Assembly: GCA_947581795.1 (NCBI GenBank)
Contig: CANPVS010000023.1
Location: 1 to 33,685, forward strand
DNA from: an uncultured Oscillospiraceae bacterium
GTDB taxonomy: Bacteria > Bacillota > Clostridia > Oscillospirales > Oscillospiraceae
Reading direction: 5' to 3'
DNA: 33,685 nucleotides
Below, piece after piece: positions 2,670 to 11,056 of this stretch; positions within the stretch are counted from its first letter, which is position 1; each line of letters starts with the position of its first letter. A program made the translations under genes and the position numbers. The notes under the pieces were generated by a model. It was given only the letters and a program-made list of their open reading frames with translations. It made no database searches and was not told the DNA's origin.

Positions 2670-5600
2670 ATGGAAAAGATAAGCACAGAACGCCTGGCCG
2701 GATGGGGCGAACGGGCGGCCAGGAGCATCCCCATCAAAGGACATATCCCCGGCCGCCGGGCGGCCCGGCGGCTGAAGCGGGCCATGGAGGAGGTCTCGGC
2801 CAAGAGCCGGGACAGCCGGGAGCCCGCCTGGTTCGCCGACAACGAATACCTGGCCCGCCGGGAGACGGAGATCGCCCTGGGGGCCTTCAAGAGCGCGGGC
2901 CGGCTGAGGAAAGGGCCCGATGGCGCGGCGGTGGTGACCCTGTGCCGGGCGCTTGTAGACGCGGGGCCGGTGACGGAGGAGCGGATCGAGGCGTTTTTGA
3001 CTGGCGCCCGGCGGAGCCGGGAGATGCCGGAGGATGAGGCGGCCCTTCTAGGGGCCGCCCTTCGCGCCGCGCTCATCCAGGCCCTGGCCGGGCCGGAGGT
3101 GGACGCCGCCCGGGCGGGAGAGCTGTTCACCGGGCTGCGCGCCCTGGCGGACATGGACCTGACTCGAGCCCTGGAGGCGTCGGACCCGGTGGACGCCGTT
3201 TTGCGCCGGGACAAGGTATACCCCGCCATGGACGAGACCTCCCGGGCCCAGTACCGGGAGCGGATCCAGCGGATGGCAAAGGCAAGGCATATCTCCGCCG
3301 CCGAGGCGGCGGCCGAGGCCCTGGACAAGGGACTGCACGAAGTCCTGTTCCCGCCCTGCAGACGCGCCGGGGCGGGCTATATCGCTGCGCGGGTCTTCCT
3401 CCCGGCGGCGCTGGCGGTGGCCCTGGGCTGGGCGGCGGGGAGCGTTTGTACGGCGCTCGCGGCGGTGTGGCCCCTCTCGGAGCTGGTCCGGGTGGGACTG
3501 GACTCAGCGCTGCTGCGGATCATCAAGCCACGGCGGCTGCCCAGGCTGGAGCTCAAAGACGGCGTAGGTCCCGAGGGCCGGACGGTGTGCGCCGTGTCGG
3601 CGCTCCTGGGTGACAACGGCACCGGCGTCCGCCTGGCCCGGCGGCTGGAGGCGTACCGTCTCGCCAACCGGGACTGCGGGGAGGAGCTGCTCTTCGCCCT
3701 GTTGGCGGACCTGCCCGACGGGACACAGTTCCCGCCGGAGGAGGCGGAACGCCTGGACGCCGCCGGGGCGGAGATCGAAAAACTGAACGAGACGTACGGC
3801 GGGGGATTCTTCCTGCTGACCCGGGACCCGGTCTGGCACAAGGCGGACGGGGTCTACGCGCCCTGGGAGCGCAAGCGCGGCGCGGTGCTGGAGCTCATGC
3901 GCCTCGTCCGGGGCCGGCCCAACCGGCTGAAGGTCCTGGCGGGGGACCCCGAGGCCCTGCACGCCAAATATGTGCTGTGCCTGGACGGGGATACCCGGCT
4001 GGTGCCCGGCTCTGCCCGGCAGCTCATCGGCGCGGCTATGCACCCGCTGAACGCGCCCTTGGTGGAAAAGGGCGTGGTGACGCGGGGCCACGGGGTGCTC
4101 CATCCCCGGATGGCGGTGGAGCTGGACCGGGCCATGGCCACGGACTTCGCCCGCATCTGGGCGGGCCAGGGGGGCACGGACCCCTACGGCGCTCCCACGG
4201 GGGAACTGTATACGGACCTCTTTGACCGGGGCGGCTTCGCCGGCAAGGGCATCGTGGACGCGGAGGCCTATCTTGCCTGCCTGGACGGCCGGTTCCCGGA
4301 GGATACGATACTGAGTCACGACGCCCTGGAGGGGGCCTACCTCCGGGGGGCCTATGTGGGGGACGTGGAGCTTTCAGACTCCTGCCCGGTGCAGGCCCCG
4401 GCCTGGTTCCGGCGGCTGCACCGGTGGACCCGGGGCGACTGGCAGAACCTGCCCTGGCTGTTCAAAGCCGGCCGGGACCTGCCCATGCTGGAGCGGTTCC
4501 GGCTGTTCGACAGCGTCCGCCGGAGCCTTGTCGCCCCTACGGCGCTGGCAGCCATGGTCTGGGGCGTGCTGTCCCTGGCGGGCCGCTGGGCGGCGGTCAC
4601 GGCCCTGGTCTGCCTGGGAGCCGACGCGGTCCATGATGCCTTCGCCGGGCTCTTCCTGCGGGAGAGCGCCGCCCGGCTGCGGCTTCGGAGCGGTGTGCTC
4701 CGCGGCGCGGGCGGGTCCCTGACCCGGTTTTTCGCCCGGCTCATCTTCCTGCCCTGGGAGGGGTATACCTGCGCCTCGGCGGCGGTGACGGCCCTGTGGC
4801 GCATGCTGGTATCCCATAAACACATGCTCCAGTGGGTCACGGCGGCCCAGTCGGACCGGTGGAAGACCATGCCCGCGGCCATGTGGTTTTCTGTGGCGCT
4901 GGGCGTAGGACTGGTGTGGCTGGCCCCCGGTCCCGCGGGGAAGGCGGCGGGGGTGGTGTGGGCCCTGGCGCCTGTGTTCGCCTGGGCCTCCGGCCGGCCC
5001 GTGACGCCACAAAACGGTCTGACCGACGGGGACAAAAAGTTCCTCCTGAAGGCCGCCGGGGCCATGTGGGATTATTTCGCCCAGCGGTGCTCCCGGCCCG
5101 ACCACTGGCTGCCCCCCGACAACGTGCAGGTCCAGCCCCCCAAGGGGGCGGCCCGCCGCACCAGCCCCACCAACATCGGCCTCGCGCTGGTGTCGGCCCT
5201 GGCGGCGGCAGAGCTGGGCCTGGCCCCGGACAGCGAGGCCGCCGGGCTCATAGAGCACATCCTAGGCACGGTGGAAAAACTGGACAAGTGGCGGGGCCAC
5301 CTCTACAACTGGTACGACACCCGCACTTGCGCGCCCCTGACTCCGGCTTATGTGTCGGCGGTGGACAGCGGCAATCTCTGCGCCTGCCTCCTGTGTCTGG
5401 CGGAGGGTATGGCGGCCCATGGCCGGCCGGACATCGCCCAGCGGGCCCGGGCTCTGGCGGACGGTATGGAGCTGGGGGCGCTGTACGACGAAAAAAAGCG
5501 GCTGTTCCGCATCGGCATGGACCCGGCCTCCGGCGAGGTGAGTCCCGGCCACTACGATCTCATGGCCTCCGAGGCGCGGCTTCTGAGCTACCTGGCCTGC

Positions 5601-8600
5601 GCCCGGGGGGACGTGCCCGTGCGCCACTGGCAGAGCCTGAGCCGGGCCCAGCTGGCCCTGGACGGGTGGCGGGGCCTGGCCAGCTGGTCCGGGTCCATGT
5701 TCGAGTACCTGATGCCGGAGCTCTTCCTGCCCTTCGTGAACGGGTCCATGCTGTGGGAGACGGCCCGGTTCTGCCTCTATGCCCAGCGGCGGCGGGGGGA
5801 GCGGGCCCACGCGCCCTGGGGCAACTCCGAGAGCGCCTTCTTCTCCCTGGACGCGGGCATGGACTACCGATATAAGGCCCACGGCACGGGGGCCCTGGCC
5901 CTGCGCCGGGATGTAGACAGCGAGCTGGTGGCCGCGCCATACGCCAGCTTCCTGGCCCTGGCGGTCCATCCCAAGGCGGCGGTGAAGAATCTCCGCCGCC
6001 TGAAGGCCATGGGCATGTGGGGCCAGTTCGGATTTTACGAGGCCCTGGACCTGACCCCCGGCCGGACGGGGAAGGGCGGCCAGCCGGTGGCCTGTTTCAT
6101 GAGCCACCACATGGGTATGAGCCTCTGCGCCGTGGCCAACTGCCTCGCCGGGGGCGTGCTGCGCCGGTATTTCATGGCCGATCCGGCCATGGGGGCGTAT
6201 AAGTCCCTGCTGGCGGAGCGGGTGCCCCTGGGCGGGGCGGTGCTGCGCCGCAGCCGGAGCCCTCTGACCCGGCCGCCGGAGAGCCGGCCGGACAGGCCGG
6301 TGTTCCAATGGGAGGGCCCGGGCAATGACCCGGCGGCCCCGGCCTGGTTTCCCATGTCCAACGGGGTGTATACCCTCCTGGCCTGCGACGACGGCCGCTG
6401 CCGGGCCGTGACCGACGGGCTTTTGATGTACCGGCCCGAGGGGTTTACCCTCGCGGTGGACGGGACGCCCGTGACCCCCTCCCGGCGGGAGGCGGCGGTC
6501 CGGCCCTGGCGGTACGAGGGCGGCGTGCTTACCTTCACGGCCCGTCGGGCCGGGGGCGTGGCCAGCGCCGCGCTGGCGGTGGCCTCCGGGGAGCGGGGGG
6601 AGCTGCGGCGCGTCACCGGCCCCAGCGGCGGAAAACTCACCATCCGGTTCGAGCCGGTACTGGCTGTACCCGAGGACTTCGGGGCCCACCCTGCCTTCTG
6701 GCGGCTGGGCCTGGAGGCCAGCGTCCACCGGGGGACGGTGCTTGTCCGGCGGCTGGCCCGGGGAACACGCCCCGAGCGCTGGCTGTGCCTGGCCGCCACG
6801 GTGGACCTGGTCCTCCGCAAGGGCGGGGGCTGGCAGATGCACGAGCCCATGAGCATCGAGACGACCCTGCCCGAGGGCGGGTGCGCCGCGGTGAGCCTCG
6901 CCTTTGGCGGCACTGCCCGGGAGGCGGAGGAGGGCGCAAAACGCATCCTCGCCGGTGCTCCGGCGGACATGGCCGGTGCCATGGGGGCCCTGCTGGGCAT
7001 GAGCGAGGAGGGGCTGCGGGCCGCCTTCCGTCTGTGCGCGGCGGTGTGCTCCCCCCGGGTGGCGGCCCGGCCCGACATGACCCGGGAGGTCCTGTGGAAG
7101 CGGGGCCTCTCCGGGGACCTGCCCATCGTGTATGTGGCGGGGGACGATGTGGACGAGGCCCGGCGGGCCATCAAGCTCCACGCCCTCATCACCGCCTGCG
7201 GGGCCGCGGCGGACCTGGTGATCGACACCGGGGAGGAGGGGCAATACCTCCATCCCCGGCAGGATACGCTCCGCCGGTATCTGGACAAGTACGGCCTTTC
7301 CGGCTTTGAGAACGCCCGGGGCGGCGTGTGGTTTCTGGGCGGGGCGGACATCGCCGCGGCGGCGGTGCTGATCCCGCCTATCCCTGAGCGGCCCAGTCCC
7401 GGCCTGCCCGCCCTGGCCCCCGCCCCGGTCCGGGGCGGAGCGGCGCCTAAGGTGGAATATCTCGCCGGGGGCGCGGTGCGCTATGAGACCCCGCCCCTGC
7501 CGCCCCGGGCCTGGTGCAATATCCTGGCCAACGGGAGCTTTGGGTATCTCGCGGCGGACTGCGGCACGGGCTTCATGTGGCTGGAAAACGCCCGGGAGTG
7601 CCCTGTAAACCCCTGGTGCAACGATCCTATGGCCACGTCTGGCGGGGAGACCCTGACTTTGGTGACGGACCAGGGCCGGCGGAGCCTCTTCGCTGGGGCG
7701 GGGGCCTGCCGGGTCACCAACGGCTTCGGCTGGACCGCGTGGGAGCGGGAGGGCACGCGTCTCACGGCCTTCGTGCCCAACGGCTTCCGGGCCCGGGTGT
7801 TCCTTATCGAGACAGGCGAGGGATATCTGGAATGGCACCTGCCCCTGGCGCTGACGGCCGGCGCCGCGGACCGGCCCTGTGTTATTACAGATTGGGAAGA
7901 GGATTGCCTTACGGCGGTCAATCCCCGGAGCGTGTATTCAGAAACCTTCCGGGCAGTGTGCAGCCAGCGTTTTGCCGGCTTCACCGGGGACGAGGCCGCC
8001 TGGCTGGCGGGCCGGATGGACGGCCGCGTCGGGGCGGGGCTGGAGCCCTGCTTCGGCGCCTTGTGGCGGGCCGGCGGCGTGAGCGTGCTGGTATGCGGGT
8101 TCGAGAGCGCGGCGACGCTGAAGGCCCTGGCGGACCCGGACCGGGCGGCGAAGGAGCTGACGAAGGTCCGGGACGGCTGGCGGGCCACCCTGGGCCGGGT
8201 GCGCGTCCACACCCCGGACCCGGACCTGGACCGGATGATGAACGGCTGGGCGGCCTATCAGACCCTGGCCTGCCGCATCCTGGGCAGGACCAGCATGTAC
8301 CAGAGCGGCGGGGCCTGGGGCTTCCGGGACCAGCTGCAAGACGGGTTGGGCCTCATCCTCATCGCCCCCTCCCGGGCGAAAAAGCAGTTACTGACCTGCT
8401 GTGCCCGGCAGTTCAGGGAGGGAGATGTGCTCCACTGGTGGCACGAGGGGCCGGGCGGCCCCAGGGGCGTGCGGACCCGCTGTTCGGACGACCTTCTGTG
8501 GCTTGTATGGGCCCTGTGCGAGTACACGGAAAAGACGGGAGACCTGGGGCTTTGCGCGGAAATAGCTCCCTGGCTGGAGGCCCCGCCCCTGCGCCCCGAG

Positions 8601-9551
8601 GAGACGGACCGGTACTTTGCCCCGCCCGCCTCGGAGGAGAAAAGCACGGTCCTGGACCACGCCCGGCGGGCCATGGACCTGGTCATGCGCCGGGGCCACG
8701 GACCCCACGAGCTGCTCCTCACCGGCTCCGGGGACTGGAACGACGGGATGGACAAGGTGGGCGGCGAGAGCGTGTGGCTCACCTGGTTCTTCGTCCACAT
8801 CGCGAGGCGCTTTGCCGCCCTGCTGCGGCGGCTGGGGTCGCCGGACAGCGAGATGTACGCCCAGGCGGGGGAGAAATACGCCGCCGCGGCGGAGCGGAGC
8901 TGGAACGGCAGCTGGTATCTCCGGGGCTGGTGGGCCGACGGCGCGCCCCTGGGGGGCGTGGGTTCACCGGGCTGCGCCATCGACTCCATCGCCCAGAGCT
9001 GGGCGGCCTTCTGCCCCGAGGCGGACCGGGAGCGGGTCCACACAGCCCTGCGGGCCGCGGTGGACCACCTGTACGACCGGGCCCATGGGCTCGTAAAGCT
9101 GTTCACGCCGCCCTTCGGCGACGAGGGCCGGGACCCGGGATATATCCGCGCCTGCGGGCCGGGGTTCCGGGAAAACGGCGGGCAGTACACCCACGCCGCG
9201 GTGTGGCTGGCCTCGGCGCTGCTGAAGGAGGGCTTCCCCGACGCGGGCGCGGCCCTGCTGCTGGACCTGCTGCCGGCCAAGCACGACGCCGCCCGCTGGG
9301 GGGCGGAGCCCTGGGTGCTGGCGGCGGACGTGTCCGCCAACCCAGACCACTACGGAGAGGCCCTGTGGAGCTGGTACACCGGCTCCGCCGGGTGGTTCTT
9401 CCGGGTGGTGCTGGAAGACCTGCTGGGCATCCGGCTGGAGAACGGCCGGCTCACGGTCCGGCCCAACCTGCCCCATGGCTGGGACGGCTACGAGGCGGAG
9501 ATATGCGGCCGGAAGATCAAAGTGGAGAACGGCCATGTGACCGTCATATGA
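2670..9551 (+). CDS. Cyclic beta-1,2-glucan synthase-like giant membrane enzyme (GT84-GH189-GH94 plan)
   Basis: This 2293-residue protein has the domain order of cyclic beta-1,2-glucan synthases (NdvB/Cgs). Residues about 390-610 look like the GT84 glycosyltransferase, with a DGD metal-binding triad at 439-441, a later SHDALEGAY segment, and RWTRGDWQ at 585-592. Hydrophobic segments lie at about 240-275, 620-655, 685-720 and 740-780. Residues about 785-1200 resemble the middle cyclisation domain (GH189-like). The C-terminal third is GH94 phosphorylase-like, including WGFRDQLQD and GDWNDGMD, with D2022 and D2025 near the expected general acid. The likely job is polymerising UDP-glucose into beta-1,2-glucan, then cyclising and trimming it. 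It is monocistronic, and the ribosome binding site at 2670 is weak. In Brucella and Rhizobium this enzyme makes periplasmic osmolytes; the role in a Gram-positive is inferred. Confidence 0.85.
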   Translation: MEKISTERLAGWGERAARSIPIKGHIPGRRAARRLKRAMEEVSAKSRDSREPAWFADNEYLARRETEIALGAFKSAGRLRKGPDGAAVVTLCRALVDAGPVTEERIEAFLTGARRSREMPEDEAALLGAALRAALIQALAGPEVDAARAGELFTGLRALADMDLTRALEASDPVDAVLRRDKVYPAMDETSRAQYRERIQRMAKARHISAAEAAAEALDKGLHEVLFPPCRRAGAGYIAARVFLPAALAVALGWAAGSVCTALAAVWPLSELVRVGLDSALLRIIKPRRLPRLELKDGVGPEGRTVCAVSALLGDNGTGVRLARRLEAYRLANRDCGEELLFALLADLPDGTQFPPEEAERLDAAGAEIEKLNETYGGGFFLLTRDPVWHKADGVYAPWERKRGAVLELMRLVRGRPNRLKVLAGDPEALHAKYVLCLDGDTRLVPGSARQLIGAAMHPLNAPLVEKGVVTRGHGVLHPRMAVELDRAMATDFARIWAGQGGTDPYGAPTGELYTDLFDRGGFAGKGIVDAEAYLACLDGRFPEDTILSHDALEGAYLRGAYVGDVELSDSCPVQAPAWFRRLHRWTRGDWQNLPWLFKAGRDLPMLERFRLFDSVRRSLVAPTALAAMVWGVLSLAGRWAAVTALVCLGADAVHDAFAGLFLRESAARLRLRSGVLRGAGGSLTRFFARLIFLPWEGYTCASAAVTALWRMLVSHKHMLQWVTAAQSDRWKTMPAAMWFSVALGVGLVWLAPGPAGKAAGVVWALAPVFAWASGRPVTPQNGLTDGDKKFLLKAAGAMWDYFAQRCSRPDHWLPPDNVQVQPPKGAARRTSPTNIGLALVSALAAAELGLAPDSEAAGLIEHILGTVEKLDKWRGHLYNWYDTRTCAPLTPAYVSAVDSGNLCACLLCLAEGMAAHGRPDIAQRARALADGMELGALYDEKKRLFRIGMDPASGEVSPGHYDLMASEARLLSYLACARGDVPVRHWQSLSRAQLALDGWRGLASWSGSMFEYLMPELFLPFVNGSMLWETARFCLYAQRRRGERAHAPWGNSESAFFSLDAGMDYRYKAHGTGALALRRDVDSELVAAPYASFLALAVHPKAAVKNLRRLKAMGMWGQFGFYEALDLTPGRTGKGGQPVACFMSHHMGMSLCAVANCLAGGVLRRYFMADPAMGAYKSLLAERVPLGGAVLRRSRSPLTRPPESRPDRPVFQWEGPGNDPAAPAWFPMSNGVYTLLACDDGRCRAVTDGLLMYRPEGFTLAVDGTPVTPSRREAAVRPWRYEGGVLTFTARRAGGVASAALAVASGERGELRRVTGPSGGKLTIRFEPVLAVPEDFGAHPAFWRLGLEASVHRGTVLVRRLARGTRPERWLCLAATVDLVLRKGGGWQMHEPMSIETTLPEGGCAAVSLAFGGTAREAEEGAKRILAGAPADMAGAMGALLGMSEEGLRAAFRLCAAVCSPRVAARPDMTREVLWKRGLSGDLPIVYVAGDDVDEARRAIKLHALITACGAAADLVIDTGEEGQYLHPRQDTLRRYLDKYGLSGFENARGGVWFLGGADIAAAAVLIPPIPERPSPGLPALAPAPVRGGAAPKVEYLAGGAVRYETPPLPPRAWCNILANGSFGYLAADCGTGFMWLENARECPVNPWCNDPMATSGGETLTLVTDQGRRSLFAGAGACRVTNGFGWTAWEREGTRLTAFVPNGFRARVFLIETGEGYLEWHLPLALTAGAADRPCVITDWEEDCLTAVNPRSVYSETFRAVCSQRFAGFTGDEAAWLAGRMDGRVGAGLEPCFGALWRAGGVSVLVCGFESAATLKALADPDRAAKELTKVRDGWRATLGRVRVHTPDPDLDRMMNGWAAYQTLACRILGRTSMYQSGGAWGFRDQLQDGLGLILIAPSRAKKQLLTCCARQFREGDVLHWWHEGPGGPRGVRTRCSDDLLWLVWALCEYTEKTGDLGLCAEIAPWLEAPPLRPEETDRYFAPPASEEKSTVLDHARRAMDLVMRRGHGPHELLLTGSGDWNDGMDKVGGESVWLTWFFVHIARRFAALLRRLGSPDSEMYAQAGEKYAAAAERSWNGSWYLRGWWADGAPLGGVGSPGCAIDSIAQSWAAFCPEADRERVHTALRAAVDHLYDRAHGLVKLFTPPFGDEGRDPGYIRACGPGFRENGGQYTHAAVWLASALLKEGFPDAGAALLLDLLPAKHDAARWGAEPWVLAADVSANPDHYGEALWSWYTGSAGWFFRVVLEDLLGIRLENGRLTVRPNLPHGWDGYEAEICGRKIKVENGHVTVI

Positions 9552-9553
9552 AA

Positions 9554-9585
9554 AAGGGCGCGTGAAAACGCGCCCTTGATTTTTT
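9554..9585 (+). terminator. Rho-independent terminator of the glucan synthase-like gene
   Basis: A perfect 10-bp stem, AAGGGCGCGT (9554-9563) and ACGCGCCCTT (9568-9577), with a GAAA tetraloop is followed by a T-rich run at 9580-9585. It begins two bases after the stop codon. Confidence 0.93.
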
Positions 9586-9593
9586 GAAATAAC

Positions 9594-9614
9594 ATATTGA
9601 CACGGCGTCAGAAT
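9594..9614. promoter_or_regulatory. TetR operator O1 (degenerate), overlapping the -35 box
   Basis: ATATTGACACGGCGTCAGAAT aligns with the perfect palindrome at 9628-9648. Its half-sites TATTGACA and CGTCAGAA match 13 of 16 arm positions around the same 3-base centre. The centres are 34 bp apart. The site covers the -35 TTGACA, so a bound repressor would block RNA polymerase. Confidence 0.6.
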
Positions 9615-9625
9615 GGTGCTATATT
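9597..9625 (+). promoter_or_regulatory. Consensus promoter of the TetR-controlled redox operon
   Basis: A perfect -35 TTGACA (9597-9602), a 17-base spacer and a -10 TATATT (9620-9625) make a strong sigma-A-type promoter. The two TetR-type palindromes overlap its -35 box and the expected start-site region. The strength of the promoter suggests tight repression with inducible expression. Confidence 0.9.
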
Positions 9626-9627
9626 AC

Positions 9628-9648
9628 GTTCTGACAAGATGTCAGAAC
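9628..9648. promoter_or_regulatory. TetR operator O2: perfect 21-bp palindrome
   Basis: GTTCTGACA (9628-9636) and TGTCAGAAC (9640-9648) are perfect 9-bp inverted arms around AGA. The site begins three bases after the -10 box and covers the likely transcription start. Its size and position fit a TetR-family dimer, most simply the product of the tetR gene in this operon. The assignment to that protein is inferred from proximity. Confidence 0.8.
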
Positions 9649-9666
9649 ATGAATGGAGGCATGGAT

Positions 9667-10408
9667 ATGAAGAAAAACATCGGTTCCAAGCTGGCGCTGT
9701 ACCCCATGCCCATTACGGTGATAATGATTATCTGATGGCGAAACGCCGTAAGGCGTTGCGCCGAGCCGCTTTGCGGCTCAGCAAAACAGCACGGCTGTTT
9801 TGCCAGATTCATTGCAATGAGCATCGCGCAAATGATCCTTGGATCATTTGCTGCCAAACGTGTCGTTTGGCGGCGAAAACATTCGTTTTCGCTATGCGAT
9901 AATCATTATCGGCGCGATGAACGGCGCCAAGCCCACCTGGACGCTGGCGGGACACCTGGGCATCATCGGCCATGACCGGGTGCTGGTGAGCCTGGCTGCG
10001 CCCCATTTCATCAATGGGAAGATCAAGGAAACGAAAAAGCTGTCCATCAATCTGGTGGACGAGGCGATGCTTCCCAAGGCCGACTATGTGGGCTCCGTCA
10101 GCGGGAATAAGACGGACAAATCCGGCTTGTTCGCCTGGGAGCAGGGCGAGGCCGGCGCGCCGGTCATCAGCGATTCGCCGCTCACCCTGGAGTGCAGCGT
10201 GGAGGACGTCTATGCCACGCCGAATTTTGAGAGCTTCATCTGCTCCATCGACAACACCTATGTATCGGAAGAACATCTGGACGGGTCGGGCAAGATCGAT
10301 TACAACACCCTGAAGCCGGTGCTGTTCGAGTTTCCCACCTATCATTATCTGAAAACCGGCGACGTGATCGGAAAATGCCTGTCTTTCAAAAAGACGCCGA
10401 CGGAATAA
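9667..10408 (+). pseudogene. Flavin reductase-like protein gene, interrupted by a 185-bp hairpin element
   Basis: From the ATG at 9667 (GGAGG at 9655-9659, seven bases upstream) translation gives MKKNIGSKLALYPMPITVI and then meets TGA at 9733-9735. The family sequence resumes at 9911 with GAMNGAKPTWTLAGHLGIIG and runs intact to TAA at 10408, including SLAAPHFI, SINLVDEAML and DYVGSVSGNKTDKSGLF. Removing 9721-9907 (element plus one AT copy) joins the two parts in frame as ...MPITV-IGAM..., the expected flavin reductase-like continuity. The ancestral protein would have about 185 residues and bind FMN. The rest of the frame is undamaged, suggesting a recent insertion. It is the first gene of the operon, and downstream genes have their own ribosome binding sites. 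Confidence 0.85.
9723..9907. mobile_element. Hairpin-array miniature element (MITE-like), 185 bp, non-coding
   Basis: The ends are inverted repeats: AATGATTATC at 9723-9732 and GATAATCATT at 9898-9907. With flanking bases they extend to 21 of 24 matches (9720-9743 against 9910-9887). An AT dinucleotide flanks both sides (9721-9722 and 9908-9909), consistent with a 2-bp target duplication. The interior is a run of perfect stem-loops with almost no spacing: 9742-9757, 9763-9779, 9781-9803 (10-bp arms), the palindrome 9809-9820, 9828-9851 (11-bp arms), 9853-9871 and 9873-9892. No transposase is encoded, so mobility would need an enzyme supplied elsewhere. A short open frame crosses it but looks incidental. 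It could instead be a repeat spread by another mechanism. Confidence 0.8.
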
Positions 10409-10420
10409 GGAGGACGAAAA

Positions 10421-11056
10421 ATGCCAAAAGGATCGCCGGAGCTGACGAACGCCCGGAAAGAGGAGATCATCAACGCCTGTGAGGCGCTGTATCAAACCAT
10501 GGGCTTCAAAGAGATCACCATGAAGGACATAAGCGCGGCCACCAGCTTTACCAGAACGTCCATCTATAACTACTTCCAGACGAAAGAGGAGATATTCCTG
10601 GCGCTGCTGCAACGGGAATACGGGCTGTGGATAGCGGACCTGGCCGCCATGATGGGGGAAAACGACGCCCTCACCAAAGCGGCGTTCGCGGACAAATTCG
10701 CCCGGACGCTGGAAAAGCGCGCCCAGCTTCTGAAGATCATGAGCATGAACCACTACGACATGGAGACGGGCAGCCGCCCGGAAAGGCTCAAAGAGTTCAA
10801 AACGGTCTATGGCCGGTCCCTGCAGACCGTTCGCGCGTGCCTGGATAAGTTTTTCCCGCAGATGTCCCGGTCGGAAAAACAGGATTTTATCTACACCTTT
10901 TTCCCGTTCATGTTCGGCATCTATCCCTACACCTTCGTCACCGAAAAGCAGCGGACGGCCATGGAGGAGGCGGGGGTCAATTATGTGTTCCTGTCCATTT
11001 ATGAGATCACATACAACTGCGTGAAGCGGCTTTTGGCAAATCAACAGGAGGGATGA
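10421..11056 (+). CDS. TetR/AcrR-family transcriptional repressor
   Basis: A 211-residue TetR-type regulator. The N-terminal helix-turn-helix spans about 12-58, with ITMKDISAATSFTRTSIYNY at 32-51 followed by FQTKEEIFLALL. The rest is a helical ligand-binding and dimerisation domain of unknown effector. The ATG at 10421 has an AAGGAGG site. It lies 12 bases after the broken flavin reductase gene and one base before the aldo/keto reductase gene, so it is inside the operon it probably represses through the palindromes at 9594-9648. Autoregulation would make the operon inducible by a small molecule, perhaps an electrophile, quinone or flavin-linked redox compound; that last point is inference from the neighbours. 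Confidence 0.93.
   Translation: MPKGSPELTNARKEEIINACEALYQTMGFKEITMKDISAATSFTRTSIYNYFQTKEEIFLALLQREYGLWIADLAAMMGENDALTKAAFADKFARTLEKRAQLLKIMSMNHYDMETGSRPERLKEFKTVYGRSLQTVRACLDKFFPQMSRSEKQDFIYTFFPFMFGIYPYTFVTEKQRTAMEEAGVNYVFLSIYEITYNCVKRLLANQQEG

Follow-up and report, generated by a model that had tools for sequence, protein, structure and literature searches.

The locus described here raises the question of how a stretch of 185 bp, made almost entirely of consecutive hairpins, came to stand inside a flavin reductase gene of an uncultured Oscillospiraceae bacterium, and what keeps its hairpins intact. It lies within a contig segment of 33,685 nt, which was analysed at full length and is called the window below. 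The original prediction for this DNA was a mobile structured element, with a protein-binding array, a structured RNA or a substrate for single-strand transposition as further options.

The interrupted gene and the anatomy of the insertion

The flavin reductase gene of the window is split in codon 19, from where its reading frame enters the element and stops at a TGA at 9733-9735. In two orthologous loci (L115 and L117) the gene is uninterrupted and reads ACGGTGATCGGCGCG where the window has ACGGTG-AT-element-AT-CGGCGCG, and in a third (L114) the window site is empty with GT instead of AT. The net insertion amounts to 187 bp, with AT duplicated. Since the frame outside the insertion is still open, the event looks recent; the window copy is an ordinary insertion within a gene. 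The features of the locus are the following.

9667..9722, + strand: 5' part of the split flavin reductase gene, ending after 18 codons and the second base of codon 19
9721..9722, no strand: left copy of the target duplication, AT (from the empty sites of L115 and L117, ACGGTGATCGGCGCG)
9723..9907, no strand: mobile element, 185 bp (from its copies and composition, with ends set by the empty sites)
9723..9732, + strand: left terminal inverted repeat AATGATTATC, or ATAATGATTATC with AT included (from arm comparison and copy alignment)
9723..9813, no strand: unit A, closing stem 9723-9734 with 9804-9813 enclosing three hairpins (from consensus fold and covariation)
9737..9762, no strand: hairpin A1, with one mismatch
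9763..9779, no strand: hairpin A2 (from covariation and stem-loop scan)
9781..9803, no strand: hairpin A3 (from covariation and stem-loop scan)
9809..9820, no strand: central palindrome TCATTGCAATGA, where the closing stem of unit A meets that of unit B
9816..9907, no strand: unit B, closing stem 9816-9827 with 9896-9907 enclosing three hairpins (from consensus fold and covariation)
9828..9851, no strand: hairpin B1 (from covariation and stem-loop scan)
9853..9871, no strand: hairpin B2 (from covariation and stem-loop scan)
9873..9892, no strand: hairpin B3 (from covariation and stem-loop scan)
9898..9907, - strand: right terminal inverted repeat (from arm comparison and copy alignment)
9908..9909, no strand: right copy of the target duplication, AT (from empty sites)
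9910..10408, + strand: 3' part of the split flavin reductase gene (the ORF 9839-10408 matches Flavin_Reduct of Pfam, E 1e-12)

The element has a G+C content of 49% against 65% across the window and, at 185 bp, is too short to encode a transposase, as had been noted originally. The seven stem-loops first described as perfect are all present, but by inspection only six of them are perfect, that at 9737-9762 having one internal mismatch (91% of 11). The inverted ends held exactly, 9720-9732 and 9898-9910 being mutual reverse complements, while the 33-nt arms are 79% complementary. The folding energy of 9715-9915 as DNA was -74.2 kcal/mol, compared with -34.5 (sd 3.59) for shuffled sequences (z -11.06; 0 of 200 shuffles as good), and the same region folded as RNA gave a z of -10.91. 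Five perfect stem-loops with 7-bp arms occur in the element, against a mean of 0.07 in 2000 letter shuffles, and the 185-bp stretches of the window densest in stem-loops are those overlapping it. In the window copy's own fold both element ends pair together, and the 3' arm of its unit A closing stem is 2 bp short; the consensus of the copies folds instead as two units, and a single long hairpin formed by the whole element was rejected.

Distribution, target sites and mode of insertion

Matches to the element were present in 21 of the 35 genomes of the genus, with up to 26 per genome when fragments and overlapping palindrome hits are included, and in none of the 25 genomes searched outside it. 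The element's own genome has two copies, the second 84% identical. A rumen copy used as query against 394 genomes of the order (169 genera, at most two candidates scored per genome) found only the genome of the window and one 27-base match. The exact 27-base left-end pattern was recovered from 70 stretches in named genome contigs, whose titles give Oscillospiraceae, Ruminococcaceae, Clostridia or Clostridiales; rabbit ("Lapin") and ruminant samples are the origin of many, and the longer matches among these stretches were about 75–98% identical to the consensus. Phage and plasmid collections gave no blastn match and viral contigs no hit to the exact pattern. Gut bacteria of rabbits and ruminants make up the group through which the element has spread. 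Near-identical pairs of copies inside one genome (in CAMHEN contigs at 99.5% and 99%, in SIG466 at 98.5% identity), together with the position of nine of the 12 end hits of SIG466 within about 200 bases of a contig's first base, as expected of an assembly interrupted by repeats, suggest that the movement was recent.

Copies with the same ends and fewer hairpins, arisen by internal deletion, are common, and composite variants also occur. Many further variants were seen in the genome RUG12356, including a short single-hairpin form and one abutting another copy. At L224:1992-2254 of this genome a single-hairpin version adjoins a full copy, with an AT common to both, as if inserted alongside. Several of the loci L207-L218 carry lone ends (ATAATGATNATC) without a body, some right at promoters or upstream of start codons; these are either deletion remnants, excision footprints or chance occurrences.

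Full-length copies, defined by a blastn match over consensus positions 4-188 or better and by distinct flanks or ends, numbered 83 and were 171–205 bp long; some of them, such as L014 and L062 to judge by their flanks, occupy one site inherited from a common ancestor. The copies are related, and the tests based on them are not independent. Their terminal repeats ATAATGAT...ATCATTAT are conserved with scattered substitutions. The flanks follow the pattern YN-AT-NR on both sides with no further fixed base (82 left and 83 right flanks), position -2 being a pyrimidine in 93% of the left and 86% of the right ones. When the joined flanks of 86 copies were compared with the loci examined, junction-spanning hits were obtained for 16 copies. 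A single AT stands at the empty junction of the window site and of L184, L047, L180, L020, L112 and L148, and also, in more diverged or gapped alignments, of L140, L136, L194, L011 and L067. Another dinucleotide occupies three empty sites, GT in L114 (the window site) and in the ortholog of L024, and TT in that of L193; of the remaining hits, L009 was unreadable and L130 is the window's gene in genome G034. Junctions fell within called ORFs in 29 of 69 cases and outside in 40, compared with 318 of 400 random positions inside ORFs, all drawn from the single genome G010. Neighbouring genes, by crude ORF calls for the 69 of 83 copies with enough flank, showed all four arrangements without clear bias.

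The sequence comparisons proposed together with the original prediction were borne out: copies with the same ends exist within the genus and in rumen relatives, empty sites in relatives have a single AT at the junction, which establishes the flanking AT as a target duplication, and compensatory stem changes appear over the 83 full-length copies (see below). Nothing of what would have spoken against mobility was encountered, since other copies exist, their flanks in the genus differ, and flavin reductase orthologs are found uninterrupted. The element is short, non-coding, multi-copy and dispersed, with symmetric ends, a duplication of fixed length, near-identical copies within single genomes, internal-deletion variants and conserved palindromes. 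Very probably, then, it is a non-autonomous MITE-like DNA element, inserted by an enzyme acting in trans, presumably a transposase, into palindromic YN-AT-NR sites with duplication of AT; this reading includes the account of the hairpin array and of the -10 boxes given below.

The search for an autonomous partner with the exact ends ATAATGATYATC (12-mers) in eight genomes returned only copies, fragments or single ends, and no such partner was seen at the 15 single-end places read. Paired ends with at most two mismatches each formed seven loose pairs in 220 loci, by eye not transposon-like, and no gene lay between paired ends in 20 stretches of RUG12356 covering part of its 40 end hits. Enzyme families were searched in eight incomplete genomes (PF13936, PF13358, PF01609) or in six (PF00239). 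DDE_3 (IS630) was detected in none of the eight copy-bearing genomes, and because of this and of the AT duplication IS630 is disfavoured; a MITE of the IS630/Tc1-mariner group (RUP or Correia type) was rejected with AT, not TA, duplicated. Transposases of the IS30 family carry HTH_38 and make a 2–3 bp duplication. HTH_38 scored above cut-off in two of the eight genomes and more weakly in five others, and the 14 loci fetched had no end pair, only two single one-mismatch hits (L315 and L317). DDE_Tnp_1 was found in two of the eight genomes. Resolvase domains, known from serine recombinases with their 2-bp crossovers, were present in all six genomes searched; among 30 such loci no gene lay between paired ends, and nine had one single one-mismatch hit; a recombinase acting in trans may nevertheless be involved. 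In L352 (G010:C6) a copy at 7231-7423 has a large serine recombinase (588-aa frame) as its neighbour, the resolvase-domain match being some 0.4 kb away, with no second end beyond the gene in the fetched stretch.

In its mode of action the element works like a bacterial MITE, and the MITE features open to comparison are present apart from an autonomous partner, for which the searches above found no candidate. According to the sections of the sources used here, RUP, Correia/NEMIS, ERIC and YPAL are short and non-coding, with terminal inverted repeats, target duplication, many copies and stable folds (PMC2229807; PMC10969869). These features are shared by the element, which is likewise A+T richer than its host. 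Most such MITEs are described as having TA at the termini and long stem loops, with YPAL as an exception that lacks TA and has internal inverted repeats and duplications of 3–26 bp (same part of PMC2229807). The element differs from most of those described in duplicating AT, in a multi-branched body built as a tandem pair of three-hairpin units, and in its insertions into -10 boxes. CIR of Caulobacter consists of two separately folding halves and a linker; each half is a long stem-loop, and the passages cited list no terminal inverted repeat for it (PMC2229807). Two separately folding halves are common to both, whereas those of the present element are closing stems with three arms and terminal repeats are present. 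The GC clusters of yeast mitochondria are described, in the part of the source cited, as palindromes that move, merge and shuffle and are flanked by short repeats, AG or ACT, the main cluster having 42 nt (PMC4478555). Here the likeness is one of analogy only, organism and sequence both being different. REP, BIME and REPIN palindromes are not known to have a target duplication and are tied to RAYT, and membership among them was rejected for a unit of about 190 bp with a target duplication; their length is given as 20–40 bp in the section cited (PMC3733652).

Insertions into -10 boxes

Among the 165 junctions examined for promoters, a T precedes the AT in 72, so that the junction reads TATAAT. 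A TTG at a spacing of 17 was present in 15 of these 72 T-junctions, compared with 0–4 at every other spacing from 8 to 39 and with one of the 93 remaining junctions; its rate at comparable YTATV sites of G010 was 2.3% (P 9e-11 against the T-junctions). An earlier scan for TTGACA-like hexamers (at least four of six matches) had given only a weak excess, the signal emerging with TTG by exact spacing. At 18 of the 165 junctions the empty site itself is TATAAT, and a TTG stands 16–18 bp upstream of 15 of these, compared with 42 of the 112 TATAATs that the fetched G010 contigs contain outside called ORFs (P 0.0003). The left end of the element faces the promoter in nine of the 18 and the right end in nine. 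T-junctions with TTG at 16–18 were found in 20 of the 83 copies, and beyond the far end a ribosome-binding site, start codon and open frame followed in 14 of 21 such junctions compared with 53 of the other 136 (P 0.016, with 9 directions skipped). About a fifth of the copies thus appear from their sequences to sit inside promoters, with the switch seemingly left readable.

Because the element ends begin with AAT, the insertion rewrites TATAAT. Where the target is the T|AT|AAT of a -10 box, the AAT ends would restore the hexamer at both junctions, and the host promoter, which to judge by the sequence may still work after the insertion, would then read through a compact, self-folding leader. Some boxes were weaker before the insertion, namely TATACT (L136, L162), TATTAT (L021), TATCAC (L178) and TATGAG (L180). 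As junctions are rarer inside called ORFs, both survival and targeting are possible explanations of the pattern, and the promoter sites may reflect survival rather than targeting. We put forward, as a tentative and rather doubtful proposal, a promoter-sparing transposon, with ends built to rewrite TATAAT in the -10 box and to give imperfect boxes (TATACT, for example) the consensus sequence, and with a two-unit cloverleaf body selected to fold alike from either strand, such that the promoter would read through a self-insulating leader in either orientation; the enzyme, which leaves the 2-bp AT duplication, might be of a new kind or a serine recombinase.

Ties to sigma-A promoters are described for TnGBS, ISLre2 and ISKra4 and are seen by the authors as limiting host cost; in the portion of the paper used, TnGBS and related ISs insert 15–17 bp upstream of the -35 region (PMC3942029). 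The present element, in contrast, inserts within the -10 box, its own end supplying AAT. A literature search in open-licence papers yielded no promoter-restoring or promoter-located insertions of this kind, no multi-hairpin or cloverleaf MITEs and no MITEs of Oscillospiraceae. Mobile elements that harm their host little should last longest, and this family offers a testable design, an insertion at the heart of a bacterial promoter whose box is rewritten by the element's own end.

Conservation of the hairpins

The consensus of the 83 copies forms two tandem units, each with a closing stem around three hairpins; the closing stems read AATGA...TCATT, extended by ATCTG/CAGAT or CATCGC/GCGATG. The folds of both strands served to define a structure of 72 pairs, in which 97.5% of 5931 cells were paired. 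Changes on both sides were found in 26 of the 72 pairs and 110 cells, compared with shuffled means of 7.4 and 17.9 (0 of 500 shuffles as high) and with 4–10 pairs in slid controls, partial and deletion copies being outside these counts. Pairs changed on both sides occur in all eight helices.

Selection on a single RNA strand should leave G.U tolerated and A.C not, and such events were counted on the tree. In the 50 pairs common to both strand folds, 23 changes from Watson-Crick gave G.T and 26 gave A.C, in contrast to 16 and 3 in 48 such pairs of the RNase P RNA of the genus (P 0.006), for which 28 of the 33 listed matches were aligned. Counting pairs at least 90% Watson-Crick gave 43 G.T and 51 A.C for the element, and 48 and 7 for RNase P in its own fold. 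The outcome depends on the pair set counted: with all 76 pairs of either strand's fold the element had 47 G.T against 76 A.C events (P 0.011), while RNase P had 52 and 35, a far smaller contrast, and the minus-strand fold alone, with more pairs (70 counted), contained 147 G.T against 43 A.C cells. The widest pair set, leaning to a minus-strand RNA, could be a hint of one. In general, no one-strand RNA signature of ordinary size is visible, and the palindromes look as if they were kept as DNA, as RNA of both strands alike, or by template switching.

The last of these is the most serious competitor, plausible but less likely than not: the element would be mobile and its hairpins functionless, and template switching in imperfect palindromes during replication would copy one arm to the other, producing perfect stems and apparent compensation by mutation alone. 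The mechanism itself is published, in the parts of the papers cited, for imperfect palindromes (PMC8794818; PMC7202029). That the pairs shared by the two folds changed to G.T and to A.C about equally often agrees with it, and so does a block change of neighbouring pairs in A3, from AAAA/TTTT to GCCG/CGGC, as expected from arm-to-arm copying. However, the closing stems also covary, although their arms are some 70–90 nt apart with three hairpins between (columns 12-87 are CG in 55 copies and AT in 23), and full copies retain all six hairpins, though deletions are common elsewhere. In the reading preferred here, that of a MITE-like element with a selected array, the hairpins would be kept since folding is needed in whichever orientation the element lands, either as DNA extruded during replication or movement, or as an untranslated leader between promoter and gene. 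The palindromes of the body are maintained, but the wobble tolerance on one strand that marks an ordinary RNA is not clearly seen. With its tens of copies whose relatives are known, the family also serves as a natural data set in which selection on hairpins can be told apart from their upkeep by template switching.

A structured RNA, either a cis-regulatory leader or a small RNA dispersed by happenstance, is improbable, even with the stable RNA fold, the covariation, several copies between promoter and gene and the minus-strand wobble excess in the widest pair set in its favour. The wobble bias is absent from the pairs common to both folds, the promoter orientation is nine to nine, the flanking genes come in all four arrangements by crude ORF calls, and insertions lie inside genes; furthermore, positions 9500-10100 gave seven Rfam hits with E up to 10, all far below the gathering score. 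The suggestion of one structured RNA from one strand is accordingly left unsupported. Single-strand mobility of the IS200/IS605, REP/RAYT or integron attC type is very improbable. Hairpins are indeed the substrates of such systems, but the symmetric ends, the symmetric target and the 2-bp duplication seen here are not known as features of theirs, and the HUH-type transposition proposed earlier fits poorly. A binding-site array for a dimeric protein, which several perfect palindromes in a row had brought to mind, is more improbable still: the six hairpins have different sequences, each drifting freely while staying palindromic, and a protein reading the sequence would fix them. Least probable of all is an insertion removed from the message, as an intron or bypass element with flavin reductase still made. 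In its favour is the reading frame, otherwise intact on both sides, from which loss of the gene looks recent or incomplete; against it, the net 187 bp shift the frame and bring in the TGA at 9733, full copies vary from 171 to 205 bp with 40 of 69 outside called ORFs, and the same-site copy of G034 sits in a gene that is itself shortened.

In that genome (L130/L004) the same AT of the flavin reductase gene carries a copy in opposite orientation beside a 9-bp tandem duplication, and about 210 bp of the gene are missing further on; either the site was hit twice or the copy became inverted. In the window, the gene is preceded by a promoter TTGACA-17-TATATT (9597-9602 and 9620-9625) and then by a palindrome TTCTGACaagatGTCAGAA (9629-9647), which is probably the operator for the TetR-type regulator whose gene lies at 10421-11056. 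Flavin reductase, TetR and an aldo/keto reductase form one cluster, split by the element. Upstream, positions 2670-9551 of the + strand encode a protein of 2293 aa with glycoside hydrolase 94 and glucoamylase domains, which we take to resemble cyclic beta-glucan synthases.
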